Shown here piece by piece: positions 3,267-19,759 of a stretch of 20,636 nt of DNA. The DNA is from a virus. The stretch's first letter is position 1, and the number at the start of each line of letters is the position of its first letter. The translations under genes and the position numbers were made by a program. A model generated the notes under the pieces. The model searched no databases. It saw nothing but the letters and a program-made list of their open reading frames with translations, and was not told the DNA's origin. The stretch lies in the IMG/VR virus record IMGVR_UViG_3300028581_000303, positions 1 through 20,636 of that record; one strand, written 5' to 3'.

Positions 3267-3860
3267 ATGTTAGACAAGATTATCAAGTTACTTAAACTGA
3301 GGTTTGCCGGAGAGATGACGCTAAAAGATGGTACTCCCATCATAATTTCTGGAGATTTAACAATTGGTGTAGAAGTTAAAGTAAATGGACCTGATGGTCC
3401 TATTTTACTGCCAGCTGGTACATATGAATTGGAAAGTGGTCAAATCATAACAGTAGACGAAAAAGGTTTAATAACTGATATTGTCGAAGTTGTTGATACA
3501 CCAGAAAATCCAGATACAGAAACAGGAGCACCATCAGTAGATGAACCAATTGAAGTTGAAGAGGTAAAAGATCCAGTGGTTGAAGAACCAAAGGAACCAA
3601 CAGATTCTGGTACAACTACCAAAGATATGCCAGTGGTTGATATGGAAACTAAATTTAAAGATTTAGAAGATAGAATTAAATCATTGGAAGATAAAACGTC
3701 TAAACTTTCGGAAGAAACTACGAAATTTGATACTGATTTAGAGCTTATCAAAAATAAGGCTACATTTAGTAAAGAATTATCTAAAAACTCTAGCCCCGAT
3801 GTGGCTACAACATCACCATTAGTTGATAAAATAAATAGAATTCGTCAACTTAAAAAATAA
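3267..3860 (+). CDS. Putative capsid scaffold / head assembly protein
   Basis: A 197 aa acidic protein immediately before the capsid gene, the usual place for a scaffold. Residues about 15-72 form a small beta-rich domain (MTLKDGTPI, then LLPAGTYELESGQIITVDEK). Residues 78-112 are a Pro/Glu/Val-rich acidic linker, 126-165 a predicted coiled coil with heptads (KFKDLEDRIKSLEDKTSKLS), and the last 17 residues are basic (DKINRIRQLKK). An acidic, coiled-coil protein with a basic C terminus fits known scaffolds, whose basic tails bind capsid subunits during procapsid assembly and which are later removed by the prohead protease. The N-terminal domain recurs in the 66 aa protein at 6311-6511. The stop is 11 bases before the capsid ATG. 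The function is inferred from position and architecture. Confidence 0.6.
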   Translation: MLDKIIKLLKLRFAGEMTLKDGTPIIISGDLTIGVEVKVNGPDGPILLPAGTYELESGQIITVDEKGLITDIVEVVDTPENPDTETGAPSVDEPIEVEEVKDPVVEEPKEPTDSGTTTKDMPVVDMETKFKDLEDRIKSLEDKTSKLSEETTKFDTDLELIKNKATFSKELSKNSSPDVATTSPLVDKINRIRQLKK

Positions 3861-3871
3861 TAATAATTCTT

Positions 3872-4771
3872 ATGGCATTCGATATTAGTGCAATTAATTA
3901 CACATGGGTCAATGAGAACAATCAAAACCTTTTAACTGAAGCCATCATCGGAGCTCAAACAGCTTCTTTGGTACAAGTTTATCCGGGTGTTAAGTATAAA
4001 GAAAACTTAAAGTTTCTTGCTACTGATGCTTGGACACAGGCTGGTGGTTGTGGATGGTCAGCATCCGGTAATACCACTCTAACCGACAAAGATGTAATTG
4101 TTACTTCATTGAAATGGACAGAATCACTTTGTCCTGACACATTAGAAACCACAGCGTTACAACTCTCAATGAGAGCTGGTAAGAATGAACAAATTCCTTT
4201 TGAACAGGCTTACGTTTCTTTAAAAACAAAACAAATCCAAACAGTTCTTGAAACAATGTATTGGAGTTCAACAGCAGCATCTTCAGTTAAATGTGATGGT
4301 TTAATCTATCTATTAAACAATGATTCTGACGTACACGATTATGTATTTAATCCTTGTGCAACTGGTCAAACTTTCAGTACTTGGGCAGCTGCTGTATATG
4401 GTATGTACAATCACCTTTCACCTGAAGCTAAAAACTTTAACGACCTTACCTTATTCGTAAGTTATTCGACTTTCAGTTTAATGCAACAGGCTATGGTAAT
4501 TGCTAACATGTATGCAATTGACCAAACTGGACCAAATTTGATGGCTTTCCGTTTCCCGGGAACCAACGTTACTGTACAACCAATCAAAGCGTTAGGTTGT
4601 TACATGGTATTATCACCATCATCCAATTTACTTTGGGTAACTGACTTGGTTTCAGAAGAAGATAAGATCAACCTTTGGTTTAGTCAAGACAACCAAGAAG
4701 TAAGATTTGTAGCAAACGGTAAAATCGGTGTTTCATATTACTTTGGGGATTACATCGTTCTCGCACAATAA
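3872..4771 (+). CDS. Major capsid protein (HK97-like fold)
   Basis: A 299 aa protein in the major-capsid position between the scaffold-like and tube-like genes. I recognise the style of Bacteroidota phage capsid proteins: a short N arm without a long delta domain, an E-loop-like stretch rich in Gly/Trp/Cys (WTQAGGCGWSASGNTTL), a long helix region (TKQIQTVLETMYWSS, about 115-130), an A-domain-like middle (FNDLTLFVSYSTFSLMQQAM), and the terminal strands VRFVANGKIGVSYYFGDYIV typical of HK97-fold C termini. No internal cleavage site is evident; the shell may mature by digestion of the separate scaffold. The start lies in an A/T-rich leader with no Shine-Dalgarno site. The gene should be strongly expressed, but its promoter is not obvious. 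Confidence 0.82.
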   Translation: MAFDISAINYTWVNENNQNLLTEAIIGAQTASLVQVYPGVKYKENLKFLATDAWTQAGGCGWSASGNTTLTDKDVIVTSLKWTESLCPDTLETTALQLSMRAGKNEQIPFEQAYVSLKTKQIQTVLETMYWSSTAASSVKCDGLIYLLNNDSDVHDYVFNPCATGQTFSTWAAAVYGMYNHLSPEAKNFNDLTLFVSYSTFSLMQQAMVIANMYAIDQTGPNLMAFRFPGTNVTVQPIKALGCYMVLSPSSNLLWVTDLVSEEDKINLWFSQDNQEVRFVANGKIGVSYYFGDYIVLAQ

Positions 4772-4806
4772 TTAAAAAATGTGATAAAAAAAAATAACTA
4801 ATAAAA

Positions 4807-5364
4807 ATGGCATGTTTGAGATTTAATCAAGAAGTTACCAGTGCATGTAGAAACTCCCAACCGGGTGTAGCAACTGTATACTTAGCAAACTTTGACGCTA
4901 TTACTAGTTTTACCACAAATACAGCAGGAACGATATTATCAGGACTTACTGCATCAGGTGAAACAGGAACTAGTTCAAAAGCGTTTTATCAGTTGGCACA
5001 AAATAAAAATTCCGCAATTTTGCTCGATACCGCAAGTATCAACATATCTAACGGAACAGCTGTGTCAAAACCGAAGTTAACTATTAAGTTACAAGGACTT
5101 ACAGAAGAAGTTATAACAGTTTATAAAGAACTTTTACAAGCTTCTGTTGTAGCGGTTGTTAAAACAATTGACGCTAAATACTACGCTATCGGATTCAATA
5201 ATGGTTTGGATGCTATCACAGCAACTTTAGGAACTGAAGCCGCAAGTGACGGTTTTAAAGGTGCAACCTTCGAATTAGAAGGGATCGAAAGTTCTCCTTT
5301 CTATTTAATAGATGATAGTGCAGGTGGAATTGGAAGTACATTCGTAACAACTTATGTAGTCTAA
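4807..5364 (+). CDS. Tail tube-like major tail protein
   Basis: A 185 aa protein directly after the capsid gene and followed by a strong terminator. It begins MACLRFNQEVTSACRNSQPG and continues with beta-rich segments (VYLANFDAI, PKLTIKLQGL, VVAVVKTIDAKYYAIGFNNG, GFKGATFELEGIE). The sequence aligns along nearly its whole length with the minus-strand protein at 9123-10235, except for that protein's insertion after residue 58 and its C-terminal extension. Size, predicted all-beta content, and expression with the capsid suggest the main tail tube subunit, which stacks in rings around the tape measure. A capsid decoration protein or head-tail joining ring is an alternative; the link of the paralogue to the tape-measure gene favours a tail role. 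Confidence 0.62.
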   Translation: MACLRFNQEVTSACRNSQPGVATVYLANFDAITSFTTNTAGTILSGLTASGETGTSSKAFYQLAQNKNSAILLDTASINISNGTAVSKPKLTIKLQGLTEEVITVYKELLQASVVAVVKTIDAKYYAIGFNNGLDAITATLGTEAASDGFKGATFELEGIESSPFYLIDDSAGGIGSTFVTTYVV

Positions 5365-5381
5365 TCCTACACACTTCAAAT

Positions 5382-5408
5382 AAAAAGCCACTCAATGAGT
5401 GGCTTTTT
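5382..5408. terminator. Bidirectional intrinsic terminator between convergent genes
   Basis: A perfect 12-bp stem (AAAAAGCCACTC / GAGTGGCTTTTT) with a 3-base loop (AAT), a T-run on the plus strand and an A-run before the stem, so it can terminate transcription in both directions. It lies 17 bases after the tube gene stop on the plus strand and 55 bases beyond the protease stop on the minus strand. Confidence 0.93.
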
Positions 5409-6310: not shown

Positions 6311-6511
6311 TTACTCCTCGTTAATATATATGATTTTATGATCTTTTATTACCATTCTACCTTTTGATAATTCATACTCACCATCTGGTAAATAGTTTCT
6401 TTTATCATATACTTCTTGTTGAAACGGAGATATTTCTAACAAATGATCATTCATATAAGAATACATCAAATACCATTCACTCCCGTCTTTTAATTTTATA
6501 CTTGTTTTCAT
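6311..6511 (-). CDS. Small protein with the LPxGxYEL domain found in the scaffold-like protein
   Basis: A 66 aa protein of unknown function. The start is the ATG at 6511-6509, which shares an A with the upstream stop (TAATG); a TTG three codons earlier is less likely. Nearly the whole protein matches residues 17-72 of the scaffold-like protein at 3267: IKLKDG against MTLKDG, LPDGEYELSKG against LPAGTYELESG, and VIKDHKIIYI against TVDEKGLITDI. The domain is probably a small beta barrel or sandwich. It lies between a lectin-like gene and the prohead protease, 16 bases from the latter. Adjacent protease and shared scaffold domain suggest a head-assembly role such as protease docking or regulation; this is inference only. 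Confidence 0.7.
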   Translation of the reverse strand: MKTSIKLKDGSEWYLMYSYMNDHLLEISPFQQEVYDKRNYLPDGEYELSKGRMVIKDHKIIYINEE

Positions 6512-7083
6512 TATGTACAAATTTTTATATAAAAAAATCTAATTGGTTTAACATATAGATTTGTTGTTTTCATTGATACTACTGTAGGAACCGTATGTGA
6601 AATATCAAATATCCAAGATGTTTGTTGACCATGTTCTGATGATGTCCAGTACCATGTTGTAAATCCAGTCGGTGCCCACAAATAATTTTTAATACTTTTA
6701 ATTTCATAAAATGATGGTAAAAACCAGTCTGTAAATCCAGATAATGATAAAGTATCACTATAACTTGCTGCAATAGGCCTTAATGTTGTACCATTTAAAA
6801 TTCTTGTTGTATTATCCTGACCAGTTCCAATGGTCAATCCAGTTGAACCTATCGTATCACCAGTATAACCCCATTGAAACAGTTGTGGATTATCTTGTTG
6901 TAAAATAATACCACCGATATACCCAGATAAATATAATGTATCACCCGTATTGAATATATACCCAACAATTCCTCCTTGAAATATATCACCCAAACTTAAA
7001 GATACTGCACAATCTAAACCAATTCTTTTAGTTGTTGGTAAATCATTAACTATTTTTTTATCATGAATACATAAATATTGCAT
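6511..7083 (-). CDS. Free-standing DUF1566/Lcl_C lectin-like tail protein
   Basis: A 190 aa protein, most of it (about 30-185) a DUF1566/Lcl_C domain. Key motifs are LGDIFQGGIVGYIF (31-44), IGTGQDNT (85-92), SGFTDWFLPSFYEI (115-128), WYWTSSE (144-150) and YVKPIRFF (177-184). Domains of this family have a C-type-lectin-like fold and are found in surface adhesins, including the C terminus of Legionella Lcl. The same domain, more diverged, is inserted in the tube-like protein at 9123-10235. It sits after the collagen-like fibre and the beta-propeller protein, 4 bases from the latter, so a receptor-binding or fibre-tip role is likely. The short N terminus (1-30, LCIHDKKIVNDLPTTKRIGL) may attach it to the virion. 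Confidence 0.75.
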   Translation of the reverse strand: MQYLCIHDKKIVNDLPTTKRIGLDCAVSLSLGDIFQGGIVGYIFNTGDTLYLSGYIGGIILQQDNPQLFQWGYTGDTIGSTGLTIGTGQDNTTRILNGTTLRPIAASYSDTLSLSGFTDWFLPSFYEIKSIKNYLWAPTGFTTWYWTSSEHGQQTSWIFDISHTVPTVVSMKTTNLYVKPIRFFYIKICT

Positions 7084-7087
7084 ATTA

Positions 7088-8191
7088 TTATGTTGTTTTT
7101 TGATAATATAAAGATTCAGTCTGGCCGTCTATTAATGCGATATAATTATCATTTCCAGAAATGTTTAATGTCCAACCACCATTTATTATTTTTTCAGTTA
7201 TCCAATTATAACCATCATATGATGTGATAATACCAGCATTATAAAAAGACATTGATAAGAACTTATTGTCTTTATAATTATACAAATAATAAGACCAATA
7301 TGGATGAGTTGTTCCATCAATTTCTGCTGCACCCGGTGTTTCATACCATGTAATACCATCACATGATTTAGATACCCAACTACCCTCATAACTAACAAAC
7401 ATACCACAACCAAATGTTACCAGACCAGTATCATTTCTTCCATCAGAAGCATTTCTTGTTGAAACATTCCAATTTACAAAGTCTGTTGTTGTTAATAAAT
7501 TACCTCTATTAGCAAATACGTATTTACCATCTGCATAATAACCACATGTTATTATTGATGTCCCACTTTGTTGTATTGCTAATGTCCAATTTATTTGATC
7601 AGTAGAATACATAATTTTATATGTATCAAAAGCTTTTCTACCAACCCAGACCCATTTTCCATTACCATAAAATAGTGATGTATTATAATAGTCACTACCC
7701 AATGGTTCTAACAAATTATAAGTCCATCCAGTAATACTAGATGAATAATAATAACCCATTCTAGCAGTAGCCCCTTCCCCTATAATTATAAATTTCCCAT
7801 TTCCATCTGTTGCTATAAACATAGGAGATATAGATGAACTGAGATTATATGTATATCCAGTATCCGGAGTATGAGTATACATTTTCATAAATGTCCATCC
7901 AGTATTAGTAATGTCAGAATTCATATAAAACGCATCACCTAAACCAGAACCTAATTTACCAACCATTAACCAATTTTGTGAACTTTCATCCCATTGAACT
8001 AATGAATAGTCCCACCATGTATTCCCAGAAACAAGAATTGGTGTATAACTTGTCCAATCTCCATAGGTATAAGTTCCAGATGATGAACAATTACCACAAC
8101 TTGGTTCATAAAAATAAACCTCGTTTGGTTTCATTTGAACTGAACCATTGATTGGATCTATAACTACCCCTGCTGCTCCTGTTGGTTTCAT
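7088..8191 (-). CDS. Beta-propeller-like receptor-binding tail protein
   Basis: A 367 aa protein with five or more irregular repeats, each ending in an Asp-box-like or BNR-like motif: SSSITGWTYN, YSTDQINWTLA, TTTDFVNWNVS, KSCDGITWYE and TSYDGYNWITE. Each is preceded by a strand pair such as GNGKWVWVGR or ADGKYVFANR. This pattern is typical of sialidase-like or photosystem-stability-factor-like beta-propellers, used by phages for glycan binding or cleavage. No complete sialidase arginine triad is apparent, so binding is more likely than catalysis. The N terminus (GAAGVVIDPINGSVQMKPNE) is fibre-like. Its ATG overlaps the stop of the collagen-like gene (8188-8191, ATGA), so stem and tip are probably made together. 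Confidence 0.65.
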   Translation of the reverse strand: MKPTGAAGVVIDPINGSVQMKPNEVYFYEPSCGNCSSSGTYTYGDWTSYTPILVSGNTWWDYSLVQWDESSQNWLMVGKLGSGLGDAFYMNSDITNTGWTFMKMYTHTPDTGYTYNLSSSISPMFIATDGNGKFIIIGEGATARMGYYYSSSITGWTYNLLEPLGSDYYNTSLFYGNGKWVWVGRKAFDTYKIMYSTDQINWTLAIQQSGTSIITCGYYADGKYVFANRGNLLTTTDFVNWNVSTRNASDGRNDTGLVTFGCGMFVSYEGSWVSKSCDGITWYETPGAAEIDGTTHPYWSYYLYNYKDNKFLSMSFYNAGIITSYDGYNWITEKIINGGWTLNISGNDNYIALIDGQTESLYYQKTT

Positions 8192-9075
8192 ATTCTTGTT
8201 GAATTTGTTAATATACCATTTTTAAATGTTACTGTTACTGTACCACTTGTCCCATCCATTTTACCAGTAAACTCAAAGGTGTGTGTCACACCTTCAGAAT
8301 TATCACTTGATTTATAATTTGAATATGGTTTAAAATAACCAGAATTTGTAGTTCCTGTTATAATTAGAGTTGGTACATATAATGTAGTAGTTCCTGATAT
8401 ATAGTAAAAATTAACATCGGTAGAAAATACACCACTTGAACCTGCTGTACCTGAACTCCCATAACCACCACTTGTACCAGAACTTCCATAACTCAATCCA
8501 CTAGTTCCACTAGATCCAGACCCACTAGTTCCACTAGATCCAGACCCACTAGTTCCACTAGATCCAGACCCACTAGTTCCACTGGATCCAGACCCACTAG
8601 TTCCACTGGATCCAGACCCACTAGTTCCACTGGATCCAGACCCGCTAGTACCAGAACTTCCAAAACCACTCGTGCCTGAACTTCCAAAACCACCACTAGT
8701 ACCAGAACTTCCAGAACCAGTTGTAAATCCAGTTACTTGATAGACTAAACCATTATCAATTGTTAATACGATACCATTATCAGCAAAAGTATCAATGTGT
8801 GACAAATTCAGATGTGGTGTATATAAAGTAGTTATCCCACTTTCCCAATATAAATTTACATCGGTACTGTAAGCTTTACCACTAGTCCCAGCACTACCAG
8901 CACTGCCCATAGCACCATTTGTACCAGATGTTCCACCTACATATGCAGAAACATAATCTTTTATCTGATCAAGTGTCACCTGTCTCACTTCAGGATATGT
9001 ATTTAAATCAACTGGAAATACATTATTCCCATTGATTGTTGGTTCTACATCTAAATTTCTTACGCGTTTACCCAT
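8188..9075 (-). CDS. Collagen-like tail fibre stem protein
   Basis: A 295 aa protein. Residues 1-45 (NNVFPVDLNTYPEVRQVTLD, IKDYVSAYV) are the usual N-terminal virion-anchor pattern of phage fibres. A short Gly-rich tract follows (48-66). Residues 68-115 form a domain opening STDVNLYWESGITTLYTP. Residues about 118-220 are collagen-like, with GSSGTSG repeated every 7-8 residues. A second copy of the small domain follows (STDVNFYYISGTTTLYVP), then a C-terminal strand region (GTVTVTFKNGILTNST). The repeat interrupts strict Gly-X-Y phase at each GSG step. It is the first gene of the fibre group, 47 bases after the tube paralogue, and overlaps the propeller gene by 4 bases. Confidence 0.83.
   Translation of the reverse strand: MGKRVRNLDVEPTINGNNVFPVDLNTYPEVRQVTLDQIKDYVSAYVGGTSGTNGAMGSAGSAGTSGKAYSTDVNLYWESGITTLYTPHLNLSHIDTFADNGIVLTIDNGLVYQVTGFTTGSGSSGTSGGFGSSGTSGFGSSGTSGSGSSGTSGSGSSGTSGSGSSGTSGSGSSGTSGSGSSGTSGSGSSGTSGLSYGSSGTSGGYGSSGTAGSSGVFSTDVNFYYISGTTTLYVPTLIITGTTNSGYFKPYSNYKSSDNSEGVTHTFEFTGKMDGTSGTVTVTFKNGILTNSTRI
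8498..8641 (-). repeat. 24-bp tandem repeat, six copies
   Basis: Six consecutive 24-base units encode the eight-residue repeat GSGSSGTS. Three units (8498-8569) read AGATCC and the next three (8570-8641) read GGATCC at one variable base; otherwise they are essentially identical. This implies recent slippage or unequal exchange, and a likely length polymorphism. Diverged copies continue to about 8710. Confidence 0.93.
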
Positions 9076-9122: not shown

Positions 9123-10235
9123 TTAACAATTCATGTATGTGATTGATAGTCCACCCAAATATTCCAATGAAATATTTATATCAACCAATATATCACAATC
9201 ACCTGAACAATTCGGAAAACATTTACCAATACCATCAGGATCAAGTAAATACATAGGATCTTTTTCTGTACCTTTCAATACAAATGTTGCTCCTTTGAAA
9301 CCACTTTCCCTATTTTCTGTTGTACCGATTGTACATTCTACTGTATCTAATCCATTTTGAAATCCAAGTGCATAAAATTGATTATCCAAAGTTTTACAAA
9401 CAGCTATTAAAGTTGTTTGTTTCACTTGATCATAAAATTTCAATATCGTTTCATCCAATCCGATAACTTTAAAATCCAATTTTGGTATAGATTGTGCTAC
9501 ACCATTTGGAATATGTATCAATGCTTCTGTTAAGAATAATGCTGTTTGTCTTGGTATTGAAACTTTATACCATGATTTTGTTATGTATGTTGGACCAAAT
9601 GTACGAATTGGTCTAACCCATTTAGATTGATATGTTCCACCAGCTCCACCTAGTGATGTTGGTAAAGAATAGTATGGTGTAGCATACATCGCAGAATTAC
9701 TTGTAATTTGAAAAGATGACCAATATGTATCGCCCATAGATTTTTTGAAATTTCCTATTAAATTTTCATTTAATAGTATTTGTTCCCATTCTAATTTTGA
9801 TGGAAGGTACCAATCTGTGTATCCACTTATATTGGCATTATGACACCACCAAGCAGCCATTGATCCATTACTACAACTATTCATAATATTTATTGTACTA
9901 GATAATCCATATCCTATATTTTCATTTGTGTATACACTAGTTTGTGCACATCCTGTCCAAAATGTCTTACCAGAAAAATCATCCTGTGCACAAATCAATC
10001 CCTCTGTTCCTCCATTCCAAGTATAAAATACAACACCACCTTGATAAATATCACCGATATTTTTAACAATCGGTATTGCTTCCCCGTCCATAGTTATACC
10101 AGAAAGTATTACATCATCCGGATATAATCTATAATCTATTAAATCAGAATAATTAGCAAGATAAATCTCTTTAACACCCGCTGGTGTACCACATAAATTG
10201 GTTATTTTGTGTCCAAATCTCCTACAATTAGCCAT
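9123..10235 (-). CDS. Tail tube paralogue with an inserted DUF1566 lectin-like domain
   Basis: A 370 aa protein. Residues 1-57 and 215-334 align with the 185 aa tube-like protein at 4807: GVKEIYLANYSDLI, DVILSGITMDGE, PKLDFKVIGLDE, ALGFQNGLDT and GFKGATFVLKGTE all have counterparts. Between them, residues 58-214 form a complete DUF1566/Lcl_C domain (NIGDIYQGGVVFYTW, SGYTDWYLPSKLEW, YWSSFQ, WVRPIRTF). The C terminus (335-370) adds a Cys-containing extension (KCFPNCSGDC). It comes 15 bases after the tape-measure gene. I infer a specialised tube or tip ring that displays a carbohydrate-binding domain on the outer tail surface. The start is in a typical A/T-rich context. Confidence 0.75.
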   Translation of the reverse strand: MANCRRFGHKITNLCGTPAGVKEIYLANYSDLIDYRLYPDDVILSGITMDGEAIPIVKNIGDIYQGGVVFYTWNGGTEGLICAQDDFSGKTFWTGCAQTSVYTNENIGYGLSSTINIMNSCSNGSMAAWWCHNANISGYTDWYLPSKLEWEQILLNENLIGNFKKSMGDTYWSSFQITSNSAMYATPYYSLPTSLGGAGGTYQSKWVRPIRTFGPTYITKSWYKVSIPRQTALFLTEALIHIPNGVAQSIPKLDFKVIGLDETILKFYDQVKQTTLIAVCKTLDNQFYALGFQNGLDTVECTIGTTENRESGFKGATFVLKGTEKDPMYLLDPDGIGKCFPNCSGDCDILVDINISLEYLGGLSITYMNC

Positions 10236-10250
10236 TATTTATACTTATTT

Positions 10251-13200
10251 TCACCATTTCGATCTTTGCTCCATTACTGAAACTTTTCTTTGTACTTTAC
10301 TAACATCATATTCCGTTACATTAACAGGAATAGATGATGTACCAGCAACAACCTCTGTTACTATTTTCCTTAAACTACTTTCATCAAATCCTCCATTTGT
10401 ATTATAGTTATTTGTTACCATTTGACTTGTATTATTTGTTGGAATAACACCACCATTAGCAAATTTTGGTGTACCATAACTATAATTACTTGTAAAATAA
10501 TTATTTGAAATTGGTATCAATCCATTATTCAATCCATCTAATTTTTGTAACATTCCCGGTTGTTGAACAACAGATTTTCTTACAATATATTCACCACCCT
10601 CAGCTACAATTGGAACACCACCACTTGAATGAGATGGTCCAGATACCTCACCCCCTAATTCGTATTCTGGCACTGGTTGTTTTGCTATTAATCCAATTTG
10701 AGTGGCCACTAACGCTGCTGTTAGTGAAGCAAATATGGCACCTAATATTGGGTTTCCTGCACTTGCGTATGCAGATACAACTGCTAACGCTCCATTGATA
10801 ACCGCCTTTAAGATTGATGCTTGTTTTTCTTTTTGGAATTGTGCACGTTTCATTTGACGTTCTTGTTCCATCTTATTCTTTTCCGCTGCAGCTACTTTAT
10901 CATCATATTGTTTTCTTGTGATTAATTGTTCATCAAGTAATGTTTGAAGATTATCTTTTTCTTGTGTTAACGCTTGATCCATTTGTTGTAACTGCATTTC
11001 CATTGCACGTGCATTCTGTTCTATGTAAGAATCAATTGCTGCTGTCATGATTTCACCTGTTTTATTGGCTAAATCCTGCATATAGGATAACCAATTTTCT
11101 TTGAAATCTTTGCCAATTACTTTTGGATCCCAACCAAGTGAAAAATTATCCAATGGTTTTTGTGTTTGTATTTCATCTATTTTAATAACAGTTTCATCGA
11201 GTGATTTATTCAAATCATCTAATGCTTGTGTTTCTGCAATAACACGTTCTTCACCTGTCATTGTAGATTCTATCCATTTCATACGTGCATCGTATGCAGC
11301 AATATAAGTATTCTTCAATTCATCTAATACTTGTACTTCTGCTTTACGATTTGCCTGTACATCTTTAAATGTATTGGTTGGAACTTTTTCTGCAGTTTGC
11401 ATTGAATCAACCAAATTCTTTTGTAATGAAATCTTATCATTCCATAGTTTTACCCTATCTTCTAAAAATTTAACATCAACATCTAATAATTTTTTGTTAT
11501 TATCATCAGTAATTTGTTTAATCTTTACACCTTGATCAGTAACTAATTTTTCTTGGGTATTATTAAAATCATTAATTAATGCAACTCTTGTTTTATCTAA
11601 AATTTCATCATTCTTTATAATTAAATCATAATCTTTTTTAGATGCATCTTTCTTTAACTTTTCATTATCAGCAATCTTTTTATCCAATGCTGCTAATTCC
11701 TTATCAAAATTAAACTTTAATTGTTGTTGTGCTAAATTACTTACACGAATTTGTTCCTCAATTTTATAATCACTATCATCAGTAATTAATTGTTTTGAAT
11801 CAGCATTAAATTGTTTGTGCATATCCAATATCCTATTATATTCAGATATTTCAATATCACCAAATAAATTACTTTGTTTTATTGTATTCAAGTCTTGGAA
11901 ATATCTATTTTCCATTTCCAATTGTCTCTTTCTTATCTCTTCTGATCTCTTTAAAGATAATTCTTGTGTATCTGTCGAATACATATTTAGAATCAATCTA
12001 TTATATTGATCCCAAGTTTCTTGCCATATTTGTAATAACTTTTCTCTTGTTGCTTTCTCTAATTGGATACGAGTATCTGCGTTAGCTTTATTCTTTTCAA
12101 TTATTGCAAGTCCTGCTTCTTTATCTAGAATAATTAATTCTTTGTTCATCTTCTCGATACGAGTTTTATTCCAATTATCGAAGTTTGTCTTTACGGACTG
12201 TTTCATGGTTTGGAATAAGTACTCACCTTCTATCTCACCTGCTTGATATTTACGATTTATTTCTGCAAGTTCAAGTAATTGTTTTTGTTCTTCCCTCTTA
12301 TATTCTTCCCAATATTTTCTACTTATTTCATTTCTTTTAGCTTGAGTTTCTGTCATTCTACCTGCCAAAACAGCAATTTTATCATCTAATGTACCTATTT
12401 CATTCCTTAATCCTTCAATTTGTTTCTGATAATCCTTCATCAAATCAATTGAAGTTTTAATTGCTGCCTGTACTTCCTTTTCTGCTTTAACTTGATTACT
12501 TTCTTCCAAGAATAATTTATTAAATGCCCATATTAAACCAGTAATAGCGATAGCAAATGCTGCCATCCATCCAAGTGATACTAATAGTGTCCTACCGAAA
12601 TTAGCTGCTGCTGTTGCTGCTGATTGAAAACCTATTGGTAAAAATGAAATTAATTTTGTAGTTGTTGATACTTTACTACCAAAATTTCCGAAATTATTTC
12701 CTGTTTTATCAATTATATTACCTGTTTTATCAACTTCTAATCCTAACTCTCTTAATGATTTTAAAATAACAGATGGAACTATTTTACCACCAGCATTTTT
12801 AAAATTGTTTAATTTGGTAGTAGTGGAATCCAATTTAGATCCAACATCACACAAACTTTTAGCCATTGGAAGTTGTTCCGGTTTGAGTCCAATCGTTTCA
12901 ATTGCTTTTGAAAAAACACCCATTTGAGATGTAACATTATCTAATACTGTTTGATAACTGATATATGCTGCTTTTTGTTCTAAAACAGCTTTTGTTAAAC
13001 CTTGTGTAGCTGCAGAACCAGCTAAATTTGAAGCTGTATTTGTATTTTGACTTTTAGTTGTATCTGTTATTTCTTGTGATAAACTTTGTGTTGCTTGTAC
13101 TTGTTTTTGTGTAACAAATAATTCAGCGATTTTAGTAGCATATATTTTACCAAGAGTAATTAAACGTTTTGAGTCTGCTAATGACTGCAATGCATTACCA

Positions 13201-13559
13201 ACAGCCATAAATTGAAGTATTTTCTTTTCAACTTCACCTGCTTTTTCGGATTCAACTCCAAGTAATGACATAACACCTGTTAAACCAGCAACAGCATTTG
13301 ATGCAACACCAGCAAAACGAGCCATATTACCAAATACATCACCCGTATCAACATTGGATGCGGAAGCACGTAGGTCATCAAAGTCACCTTTCAATTCTCC
13401 AAAACGAGCCTTTAATTTATCATTATCTTCTTTGGATAGTAGAGAACTACCAATAACACCTTTAAGTGCTGCCATTTCTCTTCTAATACCCGTTAAAGAA
13501 CTATCAAATTGTTTGGTATCTAGCCCAACTTTTACATAGATTTCGTTAGTTTCTGCCAT
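10251..13559 (-). CDS. Tail tape measure protein
   Basis: A 1102 aa protein, the longest helical protein here. It fills the tail tube and sets its length. The N terminus (IYVKVGLDTKQFDSSLTGIR) is the typical tape-measure opening. A hydrophobic segment lies at about 325-348 (SLGWMAAFAIAITGLIWAF), followed by long charged coiled-coil regions (about 355-900, rich in Lys/Glu/Gln). A second hydrophobic Ala-rich region lies at about 918-957. A C-terminal GGEVSGPSHSSGGVPIVAEG motif with GGEYIVRKSVV follows, common near the end of tape measures. No lysozyme or peptidase domain is evident. At roughly 0.15 nm per residue the tail would be about 165 nm. The start overlaps the 80 aa gene by 14 bases. Confidence 0.93.
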   Translation of the reverse strand: MAETNEIYVKVGLDTKQFDSSLTGIRREMAALKGVIGSSLLSKEDNDKLKARFGELKGDFDDLRASASNVDTGDVFGNMARFAGVASNAVAGLTGVMSLLGVESEKAGEVEKKILQFMAVGNALQSLADSKRLITLGKIYATKIAELFVTQKQVQATQSLSQEITDTTKSQNTNTASNLAGSAATQGLTKAVLEQKAAYISYQTVLDNVTSQMGVFSKAIETIGLKPEQLPMAKSLCDVGSKLDSTTTKLNNFKNAGGKIVPSVILKSLRELGLEVDKTGNIIDKTGNNFGNFGSKVSTTTKLISFLPIGFQSAATAAANFGRTLLVSLGWMAAFAIAITGLIWAFNKLFLEESNQVKAEKEVQAAIKTSIDLMKDYQKQIEGLRNEIGTLDDKIAVLAGRMTETQAKRNEISRKYWEEYKREEQKQLLELAEINRKYQAGEIEGEYLFQTMKQSVKTNFDNWNKTRIEKMNKELIILDKEAGLAIIEKNKANADTRIQLEKATREKLLQIWQETWDQYNRLILNMYSTDTQELSLKRSEEIRKRQLEMENRYFQDLNTIKQSNLFGDIEISEYNRILDMHKQFNADSKQLITDDSDYKIEEQIRVSNLAQQQLKFNFDKELAALDKKIADNEKLKKDASKKDYDLIIKNDEILDKTRVALINDFNNTQEKLVTDQGVKIKQITDDNNKKLLDVDVKFLEDRVKLWNDKISLQKNLVDSMQTAEKVPTNTFKDVQANRKAEVQVLDELKNTYIAAYDARMKWIESTMTGEERVIAETQALDDLNKSLDETVIKIDEIQTQKPLDNFSLGWDPKVIGKDFKENWLSYMQDLANKTGEIMTAAIDSYIEQNARAMEMQLQQMDQALTQEKDNLQTLLDEQLITRKQYDDKVAAAEKNKMEQERQMKRAQFQKEKQASILKAVINGALAVVSAYASAGNPILGAIFASLTAALVATQIGLIAKQPVPEYELGGEVSGPSHSSGGVPIVAEGGEYIVRKSVVQQPGMLQKLDGLNNGLIPISNNYFTSNYSYGTPKFANGGVIPTNNTSQMVTNNYNTNGGFDESSLRKIVTEVVAGTSSIPVNVTEYDVSKVQRKVSVMEQRSKW

Positions 13560-13803: not shown

Positions 13804-16800
13804 TTATAGATTATTTGTGTACCAGTTAATACCATCAGAATAAATAAATACCAATCTATTATTAGCATCTAATGTAGTGAATGGTGTTCCAATACCTTCC
13901 ATACCAATTACTATTGGATTTGAGGTAGCGTTATTCGCTAAATCATGAATGATAAAAACTTTACCATCAATTTTATCAACATCCATCAAAGTAATTGCTC
14001 TACTAGTAACACCTGTATAATTATCACCAATAACAAAATCACCACTTGTTTGATAAGTTGCTGTTGTTTTAATGGTGTTATTGAATGTTCCAGACTTACT
14101 TGAATAATTATCACTTACCCAAGTTTCTGTAACACCAGATTTAGTATCTGTATAACTTTGACTATCCGTTACCGCTTGTGTATAAGTATTTCCAGTTACA
14201 GAATAAACAAATTCTTCCGTAACAACTGTACTTAAGTCCTTACCACTAATGTAAGTTTTACTATTCTCTGTAACTGTAATTCCGGTTGTACCAATTAATA
14301 CAACATCAGTAACACCACTCGAAATAATGTTATCACTTGAATTCATCAAAACAATTTTACTATCTGTAACAGTATTATTATTTGAATTAATAAATACACT
14401 TGTATTCAAATTGGTAACACCAGATACCGTTGTACCTGTTATTTCAAAATTAAAATCACTTGAAACATCAATATTATTACCCTGTGAACCAATTAAAACA
14501 ACATCATTTTGATTAACAGTATTATTTTTACTACCAATTAATACAGTATTATTGTTATTTACGATATTATTATCACCCTGAACAAATGAATCATTGGAGT
14601 TTATAGTATTATTTTTACCCATTATAATACCTCTTGCATTAGCAGGATATGAATTATTTGAATAAGGAGTTGAACCCATATCCAAATCACCTGTCTGATC
14701 CGAATAAGTTTCATTGGAAGTAAGTAAATTACCACCCAAATTTAACATTAGTCCACCACCATTACCTATTCCAATACCTATTCCACCACCACCGATACCT
14801 CCACCACCTGTAGCACCACCAGTTGATTGACAACCTGCACTTTGGAATATTTTCCAAGTAGGTGTATCAATTGAGAATGGTAAATTGTAGTAAGTATATC
14901 TTATCAATTCAACTTTACATTCTTGTCCATTTGTCCAGTCAATGATTTTATTCAAATAATAATAAGTATTGCCTATTCTTATCTTTTTACGGAAATTCAA
15001 CATCGCAATATCACTATGATTTAATCTCATTGTGTATGTAACCAATTTTGAATTTGGGTCCATATACAATGCAATCTTTTCTTTCCAGTAATTCTTGAAC
15101 AAATTAAATAAAGTGTATTTATGTAATTTAGAAAAGTAATATTTTTGTACACCCCAGTTTAAATCTTTCGTTGGATTATATGGATTATCCCAATGTCCCG
15201 CGTAAGGAAAGAAATTCCTTGTTGTACCAGCACCAAAGTAGAATTCACCCAATCTATACCAATTCATACCTGATGTTGTACCAGATGTTGTCCCAGATAG
15301 GTAAGATAATACAGAAATCTTACTTAATGATTGTCCACCTAAATCCGATGGTAATAATTTTTTACGGTACATGATTTTAGTAGAAAATGTTTGGTCACTT
15401 TTCTTGTTATCAGTTAACCAAGTTTTTCTTTTACCATCATTCCATAAACTTGACATCAACCAAGATGATGTTCCAAAATTTCTAATAAAACATGTACTAA
15501 ACAAACTATCAATTTTCATACTACCCTCTGATAAATATGGATTTGTTATTGTCATAGAACCATAAGGAACTGTATATTCCTCACTATATTTTTTAGTTAA
15601 ATCATCATTACCATCCTTAACATATTGAAATAATACATCTTTATTCACTAAATCAGGTATTCTATCAATAATTTCTTCACCTTTTCCATCAACTTTATAA
15701 GTCCAATCCGTTGTTTCTGTAATACCAGAACGAAAGAAATCATTCCAAGGTTCAATTATTATATTACCCGGAACATCTTTATCTTCTTGATATATAAGAT
15801 TATACATATTAGATATACCTTTAATCAAATCAATTTGTTTCATATCAGGTAAAATATTGTTCATGTGAACCATGTTACCCTCGTAAAGATATGGTTTGTT
15901 GTTGTAATCGTTATTACAATAAGATAAGATTTTGTTCACCATCACCCAAGTTTGTACCCAACCACCTGTCATTGGTGTACCTACTGATCTCCATTTAAAT
16001 TCATCAGCACTAGCACGTATTGTCATATAGAAATATACTTTATCATTAACATATAAATCTTGTTCAGAAATATCCAATGATACTACCTGATTATTCAAAA
16101 TCCAGTCCTCACCTTTTGTTCCCGGGTATCTTGCGAAAGCGTTTGGATTTGGATCACCAAAGTTACCAACGTGGGGGTTGTTAATGTAAACTGTTTCTAC
16201 TGTTTCACCGATATTTTCATGGACACCAGATGGTGTGATACGGTAACAATGTAATCCTATTTCTACCGTATTGTATTGACCGTATTCATCACCACTTGTC
16301 CATGCTCCATAAAAAGGTGCGTTATTACTATCATATGGTTTGCCAAATAAATCATATGAAATAAAAGCGTGTAATTTATAATTACCTGACCTACGAACAT
16401 TCCACCATTTGTTTGTAGTATCCCAACTTAATCCTGTTGATCCTGTATTGTTAAATAAAGAAACTGTATTACCTGAATAATCCATTAAACAACCACTCAT
16501 TTGATCAAATGGTAATTTATTTCCTCTTGTTCTTCCATCGGAATATGAATAGAAATTGTGTAATCCACATTTAAATACATAACTTGATGATGTATTACAT
16601 GGTGATTGTACCGCTGGTAATATACCACCTGAATAACCAGCAATATCGTAACCACTCCAATATGTCCAACCTGTCATTGAACTCCCGTGTGCAAAAGTAC
16701 CAGATGTTGTTCCAGCGGTATCACCTGACATATTTACACTAATACCAATCTGAAATTTATTCTTATCCAATTCAAAAGTATCTTCTGATACATTTTTTGT

Positions 16801-18036
16801 TAATGGTATAATCAATGATTTAAATTCAGTACTATTTAAGAAATTACTTGAATACTGATAACCCGCATCAGCAAATATCTTATCCCATAATTCTTTTACA
16901 TAAATTGCAGGTCTCACACAAGTAAAATCTAATTTTGTTCCATCCTCAAATCCTTGATAATCAATAAATGGGTAAAAATAACCAACCGAATTATTGTACA
17001 TTGTTGTATTGTTATACGATGCAATAACATTTGGTATTGTGTAAAGATGATCATATTCACTAAAATCCAAATCATCAATTGGATTATCATTATTAGATAA
17101 CATCTTGTCACCAATTGAATCTGCTAATGATTTTACATTACCATAGAAAGTTCCCTCATATTCAATGAAATATTCTCCCTTAATAACTTTTTCCAATTCA
17201 AAATATCCAACCATTAATTGTATTGTATCTTGATAAATACCTGCAGGAATTCTCTTGTTCAAAAATATAACTGTATCTCCTGTTGTATTACCAATGAATA
17301 AATTTTCATCAAATAACATTTTAAAGATTTGATTATTATTTGGTGTTCCCGGAACTTTTATGGTTTTGGAATAGTTTGATGCTCTTCCACTAAAATCTGT
17401 TGTGATTTGAAAATTTAAAACGAAAGTATCCTCATCATAAAGATCCAATCTAACAGTTGTGCCCATACTTGGTATTATGGTAAGATTTGAAAAACCTCCC
17501 GTAAATCCGGGACTTGGAATAATTTGAACTTGTTGTGTTTGTATTGTAGTTGTACCTGTCACATATATTTGTTGTGATTGTCTACCATTTGTTGTTATTG
17601 GTAGTCCAGTTACACCATAAAGAACCGGAGTAATACTATCTGTATTTCCTGATTGTAATCCTTTCACATCTATCGAAACAGTATAATAACCCGCGTCAAA
17701 CATTGGATCAGATACTGGTTGTAAATCCATCCAAATTGGTTCCGTACTACCCGCGTCAGATCTCATCCAACCTGCATTATTATTTTCCAAAGTATCAAAT
17801 GTCCAACCACTTATCATTGTAACTTGATCTGTATTACCTTGTATTGTACTTGATGGTACATTCATAAGATAAGTAGTATTACCACTCCAACCATTTCCAT
17901 AATTCATAAATGATTGTTGTCCACCACCCTCACCAATTCCGGTTCCTCCACCTATACCAGTTCCACCACCAACACTTTGATTGGATTGGTTAATTATTTC
18001 TGGACGATATATCAGCCTGATTTCATTTGCTATCAT
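13804..18036 (-). CDS. Large distal tail/baseplate protein with C-terminal Asn-rich beta-roll fibre region
   Basis: A 1410 aa structural protein. After a Gly-rich linker (about 22-39) and a beta domain, residues about 195-245 contain DLYDEDTFVLNFQIT, ASNYSKTIKVPG and NNNQIFKMLFDEN, a combination I associate with distal tail proteins of Bacteroidota phages. Residues about 250-1065 are long, aromatic and beta-rich, with no motif I recognise. A second Gly-rich linker (about 1070-1100, GGGGIGGGGIGIGIG) leads to Asn-rich repeats (about 1140-1265; units such as NNTVNQNDVVLIGSQGN) that resemble YadA-type trimeric beta-rolls. The terminal domain (about 1320-1410) is compact. I infer a hub or baseplate protein ending in a trimeric fibre. 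It lies between the 556 aa protein and the tape-measure pair. Confidence 0.65.
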   Translation of the reverse strand: MIANEIRLIYRPEIINQSNQSVGGGTGIGGGTGIGEGGGQQSFMNYGNGWSGNTTYLMNVPSSTIQGNTDQVTMISGWTFDTLENNNAGWMRSDAGSTEPIWMDLQPVSDPMFDAGYYTVSIDVKGLQSGNTDSITPVLYGVTGLPITTNGRQSQQIYVTGTTTIQTQQVQIIPSPGFTGGFSNLTIIPSMGTTVRLDLYDEDTFVLNFQITTDFSGRASNYSKTIKVPGTPNNNQIFKMLFDENLFIGNTTGDTVIFLNKRIPAGIYQDTIQLMVGYFELEKVIKGEYFIEYEGTFYGNVKSLADSIGDKMLSNNDNPIDDLDFSEYDHLYTIPNVIASYNNTTMYNNSVGYFYPFIDYQGFEDGTKLDFTCVRPAIYVKELWDKIFADAGYQYSSNFLNSTEFKSLIIPLTKNVSEDTFELDKNKFQIGISVNMSGDTAGTTSGTFAHGSSMTGWTYWSGYDIAGYSGGILPAVQSPCNTSSSYVFKCGLHNFYSYSDGRTRGNKLPFDQMSGCLMDYSGNTVSLFNNTGSTGLSWDTTNKWWNVRRSGNYKLHAFISYDLFGKPYDSNNAPFYGAWTSGDEYGQYNTVEIGLHCYRITPSGVHENIGETVETVYINNPHVGNFGDPNPNAFARYPGTKGEDWILNNQVVSLDISEQDLYVNDKVYFYMTIRASADEFKWRSVGTPMTGGWVQTWVMVNKILSYCNNDYNNKPYLYEGNMVHMNNILPDMKQIDLIKGISNMYNLIYQEDKDVPGNIIIEPWNDFFRSGITETTDWTYKVDGKGEEIIDRIPDLVNKDVLFQYVKDGNDDLTKKYSEEYTVPYGSMTITNPYLSEGSMKIDSLFSTCFIRNFGTSSWLMSSLWNDGKRKTWLTDNKKSDQTFSTKIMYRKKLLPSDLGGQSLSKISVLSYLSGTTSGTTSGMNWYRLGEFYFGAGTTRNFFPYAGHWDNPYNPTKDLNWGVQKYYFSKLHKYTLFNLFKNYWKEKIALYMDPNSKLVTYTMRLNHSDIAMLNFRKKIRIGNTYYYLNKIIDWTNGQECKVELIRYTYYNLPFSIDTPTWKIFQSAGCQSTGGATGGGGIGGGGIGIGIGNGGGLMLNLGGNLLTSNETYSDQTGDLDMGSTPYSNNSYPANARGIIMGKNNTINSNDSFVQGDNNIVNNNNTVLIGSKNNTVNQNDVVLIGSQGNNIDVSSDFNFEITGTTVSGVTNLNTSVFINSNNNTVTDSKIVLMNSSDNIISSGVTDVVLIGTTGITVTENSKTYISGKDLSTVVTEEFVYSVTGNTYTQAVTDSQSYTDTKSGVTETWVSDNYSSKSGTFNNTIKTTATYQTSGDFVIGDNYTGVTSRAITLMDVDKIDGKVFIIHDLANNATSNPIVIGMEGIGTPFTTLDANNRLVFIYSDGINWYTNNL

Positions 18037-18088: not shown

Positions 18089-19759
18089 TCATCCCTGTTG
18101 TACAATCGATTCATTCGAAGGTCTTAATTTTATCTCGTAATATATGATTTTATCATTTTTCTTTTGTTCATATCTAACACTATCCGATACAACTATCATG
18201 GGCACGCCGTAAGGCCACCATGCATCATTGTAATAGAATGTTTGTAACATGTACACAACAGGACTAGTATATAAACCCATTAATATTTGACTTTCCATTT
18301 GAGTAACAGAATTAGTTCTTAAAGTATACTCTTCCTGATAGTTTACATTGAAAACCCTTTCACCTGCATCATATGGTGAATAAGATGATGTTGGTAATTT
18401 CTGTTTATATGTTGTACGGTTAATTTTCTGATTTATTTCTTTTTTTGCTGAAAAAGTAAATGTGTCGAACCCCCCGTGCTTGTTGAGAAAAAAGATTTGT
18501 ACCCTATCATATCTATTACATTTATCTTTCTTAAATACTTGGAAAGGTACACGATTTAAAGTTAATAAAGATGTAGATGTTTTACTATAATATATTGGTC
18601 CTGAACGATGTGACCAAGGACCAGTTCCCGGATGACTAACATCACCATCTATAACTGTTCCACCTGATGAAAGTAATGCAAATACTCCTTCGTTTTGAGC
18701 TTCATAAATCATACTACCAACAGGCATTAATAAATTATTAGCACTTGTATTACTATAACAATAATCATTATAACTACCATTCTTTACTAAATCAATTTCA
18801 TATCTAATCCAAGTATTTGTGAATCCACTTAACACACCATTGTAATTTATGAGTTGTTTAGGACCACATGGAAATCTGTATGCTCTTGTATTTGTATAAG
18901 TAAATGAAAAATTATCATCATATATTGTAGTAACAGAAATACCAGAATGTGATTGGATGATACTAATACCACCACCTCCACCACCACCTATGTATGAACT
19001 ATCACCACCTGTTGCAATATTTTTAGTATCCAAACTTGGAAGTGACATTTGTAAATTTTCTTGACCATCAATATTAGCTGCTAATTGAATACCACTACCA
19101 CCCCCTCCGATGGTTTGTGTATTTGTTCCTTGTGTCCAAGTAGAATGCCATACTCTGTATCTTATTTTATCAGGACGACCACAAATGTTATCACCCAATG
19201 CATATAAAAATAAATATTCATCATTATCTAATTCATATCTATTTGCATCAGTTAAAAATTTACCACCAGTCGTACCACTCAAAGATGATGTTGTTGTTCC
19301 ACTCATAACCCAAAGTGCATTACCATCTGGATTTAAACCCATATAATCATATGGTATTGGTTGTTGACAACCATTGAAATAAGTTCTAGGTGTACTTTCG
19401 TACCAGTTACCTGTATTAATTCTTACAGGAGGTGTACCATAATATTCATAAACAAATAATTGAAATCTTAACGCCATTGTTAAACACTCTTCAAGATTAG
19501 TATCACTTAAATTAATTTCCTCTTTAACAAAGTTTCTATAAATAGATGATGGATTAAATTCACATGTTCCACCTGATATTGGATAAAGATTATATGTACC
19601 CAATTCTTTTGTCCATCCATCATATGTATAATATTTCAATACAAATTGGAATTGGAAATTCGGTTGTGTCCAGTTACTACTTGAGAACTGATATGTTAAT
19701 CTATTGGTATCGAATACTCTACCCCAATCTTTTGGTTGTGTTATCAATGATATTGCCAT
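18089..19759 (-). CDS. Tail/baseplate protein with polyglycine linkers
   Basis: A 556 aa protein of uncertain exact role. The N-terminal region (1-210) is beta-rich, with VFDTNRLTYQFSSSNWTQPN, FQFQFVLKYY and CEFNPSSIYRNFV. That style is shared with proteins near the tail tip of Bacteroidota phages. Two glycine-rich linkers follow at about 216 (TIGGGGSGIQL) and 253 (YIGGGGGGGISII), then a second beta-rich half ending in YEQKKNDKIIYYEIKLRPS. Between the linkers is a small segment with QENLQMSLPSLDTKN. It comes after the gp10-like tail-completion gene with one base between them, and 52 bases before the 1410 aa gene. A distal tail or baseplate component is the best inference. No enzymatic motif is visible. 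Confidence 0.55.
   Translation of the reverse strand: MAISLITQPKDWGRVFDTNRLTYQFSSSNWTQPNFQFQFVLKYYTYDGWTKELGTYNLYPISGGTCEFNPSSIYRNFVKEEINLSDTNLEECLTMALRFQLFVYEYYGTPPVRINTGNWYESTPRTYFNGCQQPIPYDYMGLNPDGNALWVMSGTTTSSLSGTTGGKFLTDANRYELDNDEYLFLYALGDNICGRPDKIRYRVWHSTWTQGTNTQTIGGGGSGIQLAANIDGQENLQMSLPSLDTKNIATGGDSSYIGGGGGGGISIIQSHSGISVTTIYDDNFSFTYTNTRAYRFPCGPKQLINYNGVLSGFTNTWIRYEIDLVKNGSYNDYCYSNTSANNLLMPVGSMIYEAQNEGVFALLSSGGTVIDGDVSHPGTGPWSHRSGPIYYSKTSTSLLTLNRVPFQVFKKDKCNRYDRVQIFFLNKHGGFDTFTFSAKKEINQKINRTTYKQKLPTSSYSPYDAGERVFNVNYQEEYTLRTNSVTQMESQILMGLYTSPVVYMLQTFYYNDAWWPYGVPMIVVSDSVRYEQKKNDKIIYYEIKLRPSNESIVQQG

Follow-up and report, generated by a model that had tools for sequence, protein, structure and literature searches.

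Why a virus should encode a second tail-tube-type protein with a whole lectin-like domain lodged inside it, and where such a protein would act, is the question raised by one gene within a 20,636-nucleotide stretch of virus DNA (IMG/VR record IMGVR_UViG_3300028581_000303; hereafter, the window). The product of this gene is referred to as tubeB-lectin and its shorter counterpart, encoded elsewhere in the window, as tubeA. The initial annotation had given the open reading frames and coordinates of both proteins correctly, and had suggested that the longer one places a ring or patch of glycan-binding domains on the tail. The features discussed are collected in Table 1.

Table 1. Features of the window, with the basis of each assignment.
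Feature	Coordinates	Strand	Basis
tubeB-lectin, second tube-type protein (370 aa) with inserted Lcl_C-like domain	9123..10235	(-)	Open reading frame and homology to tubeA
tubeB-lectin, N-terminal tube core (residues 1-52: N-arm, strands 21-28, 32-38, 43-49)	10080..10235	(-)	36% identity to tubeA
tubeB-lectin, insert: Lcl_C/DUF1566-like domain and linkers (residues 53-218)	9582..10079	(-)	
tubeB-lectin, C-terminal tube core (residues 219-340) and cysteine-containing extension (to 370)	9126..9581	(-)	44% identity to tubeA
tubeA, predicted main tail tube protein (185 aa), immediately 3' of the major capsid gene	4807..5364	(+)	Fold; present in all relatives
Major capsid protein	3872..4771	(+)	Conservation and order; no Pfam match
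Tape-measure-like protein, directly upstream of tubeB-lectin	10251..13559	(-)	Length and order
Large tail-tip-like protein	13804..18036	(-)	Syntenic in relatives
Collagen-like (GSSGTSG)n fibre-type protein, next gene after tubeB-lectin	8188..9075	(-)	
367-aa protein, same accessory cassette as the collagen-like gene	7088..8191	(-)	
Free-standing Lcl_C-like protein (190 aa)	6511..7083	(-)	Paralogue of the insert
556-aa protein	18089-19759		

The model of tubeA, calculated from 17 family members, has a pLDDT of 78 and a pTM of 0.74. The fold looked for was that of tube proteins, namely a beta-sandwich together with a single alpha-helix, in which strands 2 and 3 are connected by a long loop. Structural comparison using VIA-align matched tubeA to the tube proteins of YDC107 (Z 8.9), lambda (gpV), 80alpha and Mu (Z 8.6 each) and SPP1 (Z 8.4), and nearly all of the matches were tail tube proteins or their T6SS/injection-system (Hcp) kin. 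Although Z-scores of about 8 are moderate, the list of matches is consistently of one fold, and tubeA as modelled has the tail-tube fold. Structure comparison alone gave these matches, and a sequence profile of the tube family returned nothing convincing from the PDB. Relatives of tubeA in BFVD include Nonlabens and Polaribacter phage proteins, as well as a protein named 'Major tail protein'; the same fold search lists longer tube-like proteins (279, 400 and 485 amino acids), in which similar insertions may occur. As 15 of the 17 family members belong to PHROG 19091, listed as of unknown function, that group gains a probable function as tail tube.

That the flanks of the 370-residue protein align with the 185-residue one, as first claimed, was borne out by BLASTP. 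Residues 219-340 of tubeB-lectin match residues 57-179 of tubeA with 44% identity over 124 amino acids (E=5e-34), and residues 4-52 match residues 3-52 with 36% identity over 50 amino acids (E=3e-8). The similarity is beyond chance, and from these alignments tubeB-lectin is a diverged copy of tubeA. Between the two segments, roughly 166 residues of tubeB-lectin (53-218) replace just five of tubeA, TGTSS; the sequences bordering the junctions are ...ILSGITMDGE and TKSWYKV... in tubeB-lectin and ...ILSGLTASGE and KAFYQL... in tubeA. The lectin domain proper corresponds to about residues 57-214, and the boundaries proposed at first (58-214) were correct to within a few residues. The C-terminal extension comprises some 23-30 residues from about residue 339, with cysteines at 339, 343, 347 and 370.

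The model of tubeB-lectin has low overall confidence (pLDDT 52, pTM 0.44) and is worst toward the end of the lectin, for which the alignment gave no cover over about the last third to half. Within this low-confidence model, the core includes strands 21-28, 32-38, 43-49, 223-226, 233-239 and 248-258, a helix at 262-271 and a strand at 275-282, nearly identical to the elements of tubeA and in the same order. VIA-align again returned tube proteins, with Z up to 8.4 and matches that span residues 17-337 across the insert. As modelled, the protein keeps the tube-subunit fold around its insert. The models and VIA-align gave no sign of flanks that depart from the tube fold or of homologues that are unrelated, either of which would have undone the initial assignment; a second tube-type protein is supported by homology, by the tube fold of tubeA and by the same ordered elements in the flanks.

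In solved tubes, for example that of JBD30, strands 1 and 2 lead into a long hinge loop in contact with the next ring, after which come a strand and a helix (PMC11445458, PMC8718954). From the order of these elements we infer that residues 50-83 of tubeA constitute the inter-ring loop, and that the insertion lies at its N-terminal base. Among the closest relatives, moreover, no other loop of the family varies as much in length as the one that receives the insert. What is unusual in tubeB-lectin is where the insert lies, at the base of the loop by which rings are normally joined; there it could disturb ring stacking. Because of this location, the 'ring or patch' of the initial annotation is a choice between different mechanisms.

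The insert had been described as a complete DUF1566/Lcl_C domain. Comparison with Pfam upheld homology over the length of the domain, but the insert alone scores 22.1 bits against Lcl_C (PF07603; E=2e-4), below the curated gathering cut-off of 34.9, and for this reason it is named here as Lcl_C-like, a diverged relative. It matches PHROG 4245 at 5e-12. In an alignment comprising the whole 370-residue protein, the insert alone and 18 homologous phage domains, all 20 members match Lcl_C (best 2.3e-14). A profile of 19 such domains also matches the crystal structure of the C-terminal domain of Legionella Lcl (PDB code: 8q4e) with E=7.5e-19, and as both the start and the end of that structure are aligned, the insert corresponds to a whole domain placed in one loop, in agreement with the first description.

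The C-terminal domain of Lcl is C-type-lectin-like without the classical calcium/sugar motif, is trimeric and binds sulfated glycosaminoglycans (PMC11162425). Whereas Legionella Lcl has a positive surface, basic residues are not abundant in the insert (8 lysines and arginines versus 10 aspartates and glutamates in 163 amino acids), and therefore the ligand of Lcl is not to be assumed for it. The free-standing Lcl_C-like protein of the window is paralogous to the insert, with about 30% identity. The nearest relative of the insert, with 41% identity, is a free-standing lectin in the fibre cassettes of contigs L040 and L042, the tube protein of which is 53% identical to tubeA. Among 50,697 phage records, tubeB-lectin was matched only through its lectin part, in two Porphyromonas phages. 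A recent foreign origin of the insert was rejected, the base composition being alike in insert and flanks. Many phage DUF1566 and C-type lectins are targets of diversity-generating retroelements; this too was rejected here, as neither a template-like repeat of either lectin end nor RVT_1 was found in the 35,089-bp contig, which is possibly incomplete. Another candidate glycan-binding tail part is a laminin-G/concanavalin-like lectin (PF13385, 2e-12) encoded by contig L012 (11917-12666, (-)).

The gene for tubeB-lectin lies within the tape-measure/tip cluster, as originally described. It begins 15 nt after the tape-measure-like gene and is followed by the collagen-like gene, the 367-aa gene and the free-standing lectin gene. 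The relatives that were mapped have the gene order tip, tape measure, protease, scaffold-like, capsid, tube and portal. Four of these (L035, L019, L003 and L022) have nothing tube-like between tape measure and protease, and the whole block from tubeB-lectin to the lectin gene is absent from that junction. A role outside the tail, as a neck or head decoration or as a soluble lectin released from cells, is very improbable: neck-borne carbohydrate-binding modules (CBMs) do exist in 936 phages (PMC6669499), but tubeB-lectin retains the tube fold and its gene adjoins the tape measure and the tip.

Several other features of the neighbourhood were observed. The scaffold-like/capsid/tubeA block (3267-5364) is inverted with respect to the other syntenic relatives mapped, where it lies on the strand of the tail genes. 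Long flanking inverted repeats were not found, and an invertible element was rejected as the explanation of the flipped block. Between the capsid block and the convergent protease gene lies a perfect, terminator-like inverted repeat of 13 bp (5382-5408), and a GIY-YIG/NUMOD3 homing-endonuclease gene (1612-2094, (-)) overlaps the end of the portal gene. In the tip protein, repeats like NNTVLIGSKNNTVNQNDVVLIGSQ are found in the C-terminal third and resemble the beta-roll head of trimeric adhesins. Long (GSSGTSG)n collagen-like repeats are found in tail-cassette proteins both in the window (8188-9075, (-)) and in L003 (12798-14876) and L013 (9582-14303).

The distribution of the second copy was examined in relatives collected via the capsid, tip and tube proteins, whose whole contigs were then searched with the tube profile. 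Of the 24 contigs with the tube family, 23 have one tube gene, beside the capsid gene, and this virus alone has two. The lectin-bearing copy is likewise confined to this virus, an absence from the others that is firm only for the sequenced stretches, because most of their contigs are fragments. Free-standing lectins occur in relatives as tail-cassette genes. No match to tubeA, the capsid or the tip proteins was returned from the 50,697 phage records, and no relative of the virus was found in 84,980 genomes. The tube genes of two contigs have in-frame stops, one TAG in G007 (3300001485_000027, 16878-17381) and one TAA in G023 (3300000127_000017, 8051-8569), which may reflect recoded stop codons or errors of sequencing.

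In a tree of 13 tubes, tubeB-lectin falls inside the close clade (support 100/99) with a branch length of 1.19, compared to 0.16 for tubeA. It keeps 33 of the 53 residues (62%) that are invariant in five close single-copy tubes, whereas ordinary tube members keep 80-98% of such residues in leave-one-out comparisons. The long branch and the residues kept fit a retained but re-purposed copy. Recent duplication was rejected, since DNA similarity between the two genes is gone beyond an 18-base match; the sequences point instead to a duplication that is lineage-limited but not recent, the copy having been retained with a changed role. Occurrence in one virus and a fast-evolving branch could also be taken as marks of an assembly artefact or of a decaying duplicate without function. 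This is scarcely credible, as the 370-codon frame is intact, the insert fits one loop exactly and over half the invariant residues of the core are retained; moreover, another and longer record of the virus, possibly of the same assembly origin, shares 20,235 identical bp.

The gene position directly after the tape measure is the usual one for a distal tail protein (Dit), and Dits are built on a tube-like core that in some cases bears CBM insertions (PMC10688798, PMC7291167), so that tubeB-lectin might serve as the functional Dit of the virus, in the form of an 'evolved Dit' into which a carbohydrate-binding domain has been inserted. This appears improbable, however. The protein is missing from the 23 related contigs (partial), several of which have the tail gene set, and its sequence is clearly nearest to the tube protein. 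Because the same tail gene set occurs without tubeB-lectin, another protein must fill the Dit role in the relatives. The lack of a Sipho_tail/Dit match in Pfam is a weak point of the case against, as the relatives likewise have none: Sipho_tail (PF05709) has no match in this virus or in two relatives, for which the profile may be too distant. Overall, identity as an evolved Dit is disfavoured, while a Dit-like way of working is possible.

The reading we favour, with a probability of roughly one half, is that tubeB-lectin forms one or more accessory tube-derived rings, probably located distally on a siphovirus-type tail, that display lectins for host adsorption. A tail tube gene would have been duplicated and a lectin domain captured from a tail-fibre-type gene of the same virus group. 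The product would still fold as a tube subunit, would be produced together with the tape-measure and tip genes and would probably co-assemble at the distal end, in a single ring or a small number of them. Tail assembly starts at this end, and the products of the neighbouring tape-measure and tip genes act there. Up to six Lcl_C-like domains would then face outward from each ring, allowing multivalent, probably reversible binding to host surface glycans before the tip engages. Distal placement is suggested by the gene trailing that of the tape measure by 15 nt within the tip cluster, and by the insert at the inter-ring loop, which would hinder stacking on one side. From these data we infer that the protein is present in the virion, assembles into rings, sits distally and binds glycans, as well as its copy number.

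Two elaborations may be considered. By analogy with the trimers of Lcl, the six lectins could pair into two trimers per ring, although this is speculation. It is doubtful, though conceivable, that the lectin in the inter-ring loop makes tubeB-lectin a dedicated end ring able to stack on one side only; if true, a single insertion would both fix the position at the tail end and display six glycan-binding heads there. The arrangement would further show a direct route by which phages obtain host-binding parts, with a tube gene copied and a fibre lectin placed into its most tolerant loop. It would also offer a testable case for how tube-like proteins reach special positions, such as that of the Dit ring, whose core fold is the same.

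The main rival to the distal ring is that tubeB-lectin is scattered as rings or subunits along the whole tube, in the manner of gp17.1*, the less abundant, longer form in SPP1, or of the TpeX-bearing tubes of 936 phages. The retained core and inter-ring elements (the N-arm and the long loop after the insert) would permit this, and precedents exist in the two tube-protein forms of SPP1, at a 3:1 ratio (PMC8718954), and in the CBM-extended tube proteins of 936 phages (PMC6669499). We nevertheless regard scattering as unlikely: the genes for tubeB-lectin and tubeA are in different transcription units on opposite strands, the insert is found at the inter-ring loop and neither follows the helix nor stands at the C-terminus, and mixed interfaces may not match, given divergence to about 41% identity.

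The distal ring of lectins would join a set of related designs. Carbohydrate-binding decorations on tube proteins and Dits are already known and their aid to adsorption is partly shown (PMC6669499, PMC10688798); in lactococcal phages, CBM insertions in tail proteins raise adsorption (PMC10688798). The literature and phage records searched yielded no other case of an additional, separate tube gene whose inter-ring loop contains a lectin, and the arrangement is so far known from one virus, from sequence and models. Closest in outline are SPP1 gp17.1/gp17.1* and the MTP-TpeX pair of 936 phages, which similarly comprise two tube-protein forms, one with an added domain for which binding to the host surface is either supposed or demonstrated (PMC8718954, PMC6669499). 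In those systems the domain is C-terminal and arises through frameshift of one gene, whereas tubeB-lectin has its insertion internally and comes from a gene of its own, diverged from that of tubeA and on the opposite strand, for which reason a frameshift-extended tube protein was rejected. Evolved Dits resemble tubeB-lectin as tube-like tail-end proteins with an internal carbohydrate-binding insertion and a gene adjoining the tape measure (PMC10688798, PMC7291167). The Dit, however, is a standing part of the tail with or without an insert, and tubeB-lectin is a copy of a tube protein that is absent from relatives. In JBD30 gp44 and YSD1_22 a domain is also inserted inside the tube fold (PMC11445458, PMC8718954), but there it is Ig-like or a beta-sandwich, follows the alpha-helix and belongs to the sole tube protein, while the insert of tubeB-lectin is Lcl_C-like and precedes the first arm of the inter-ring loop in a second copy. 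Lastly, Legionella Lcl combines a homologous domain with a collagen-like stalk (PMC11162425), and in the window a collagen-like gene is found next door; in Lcl, an adhesin of the bacterial surface, the domain is C-terminal in a trimer, in contrast to tubeB-lectin, in which it is carried inside a tube subunit.
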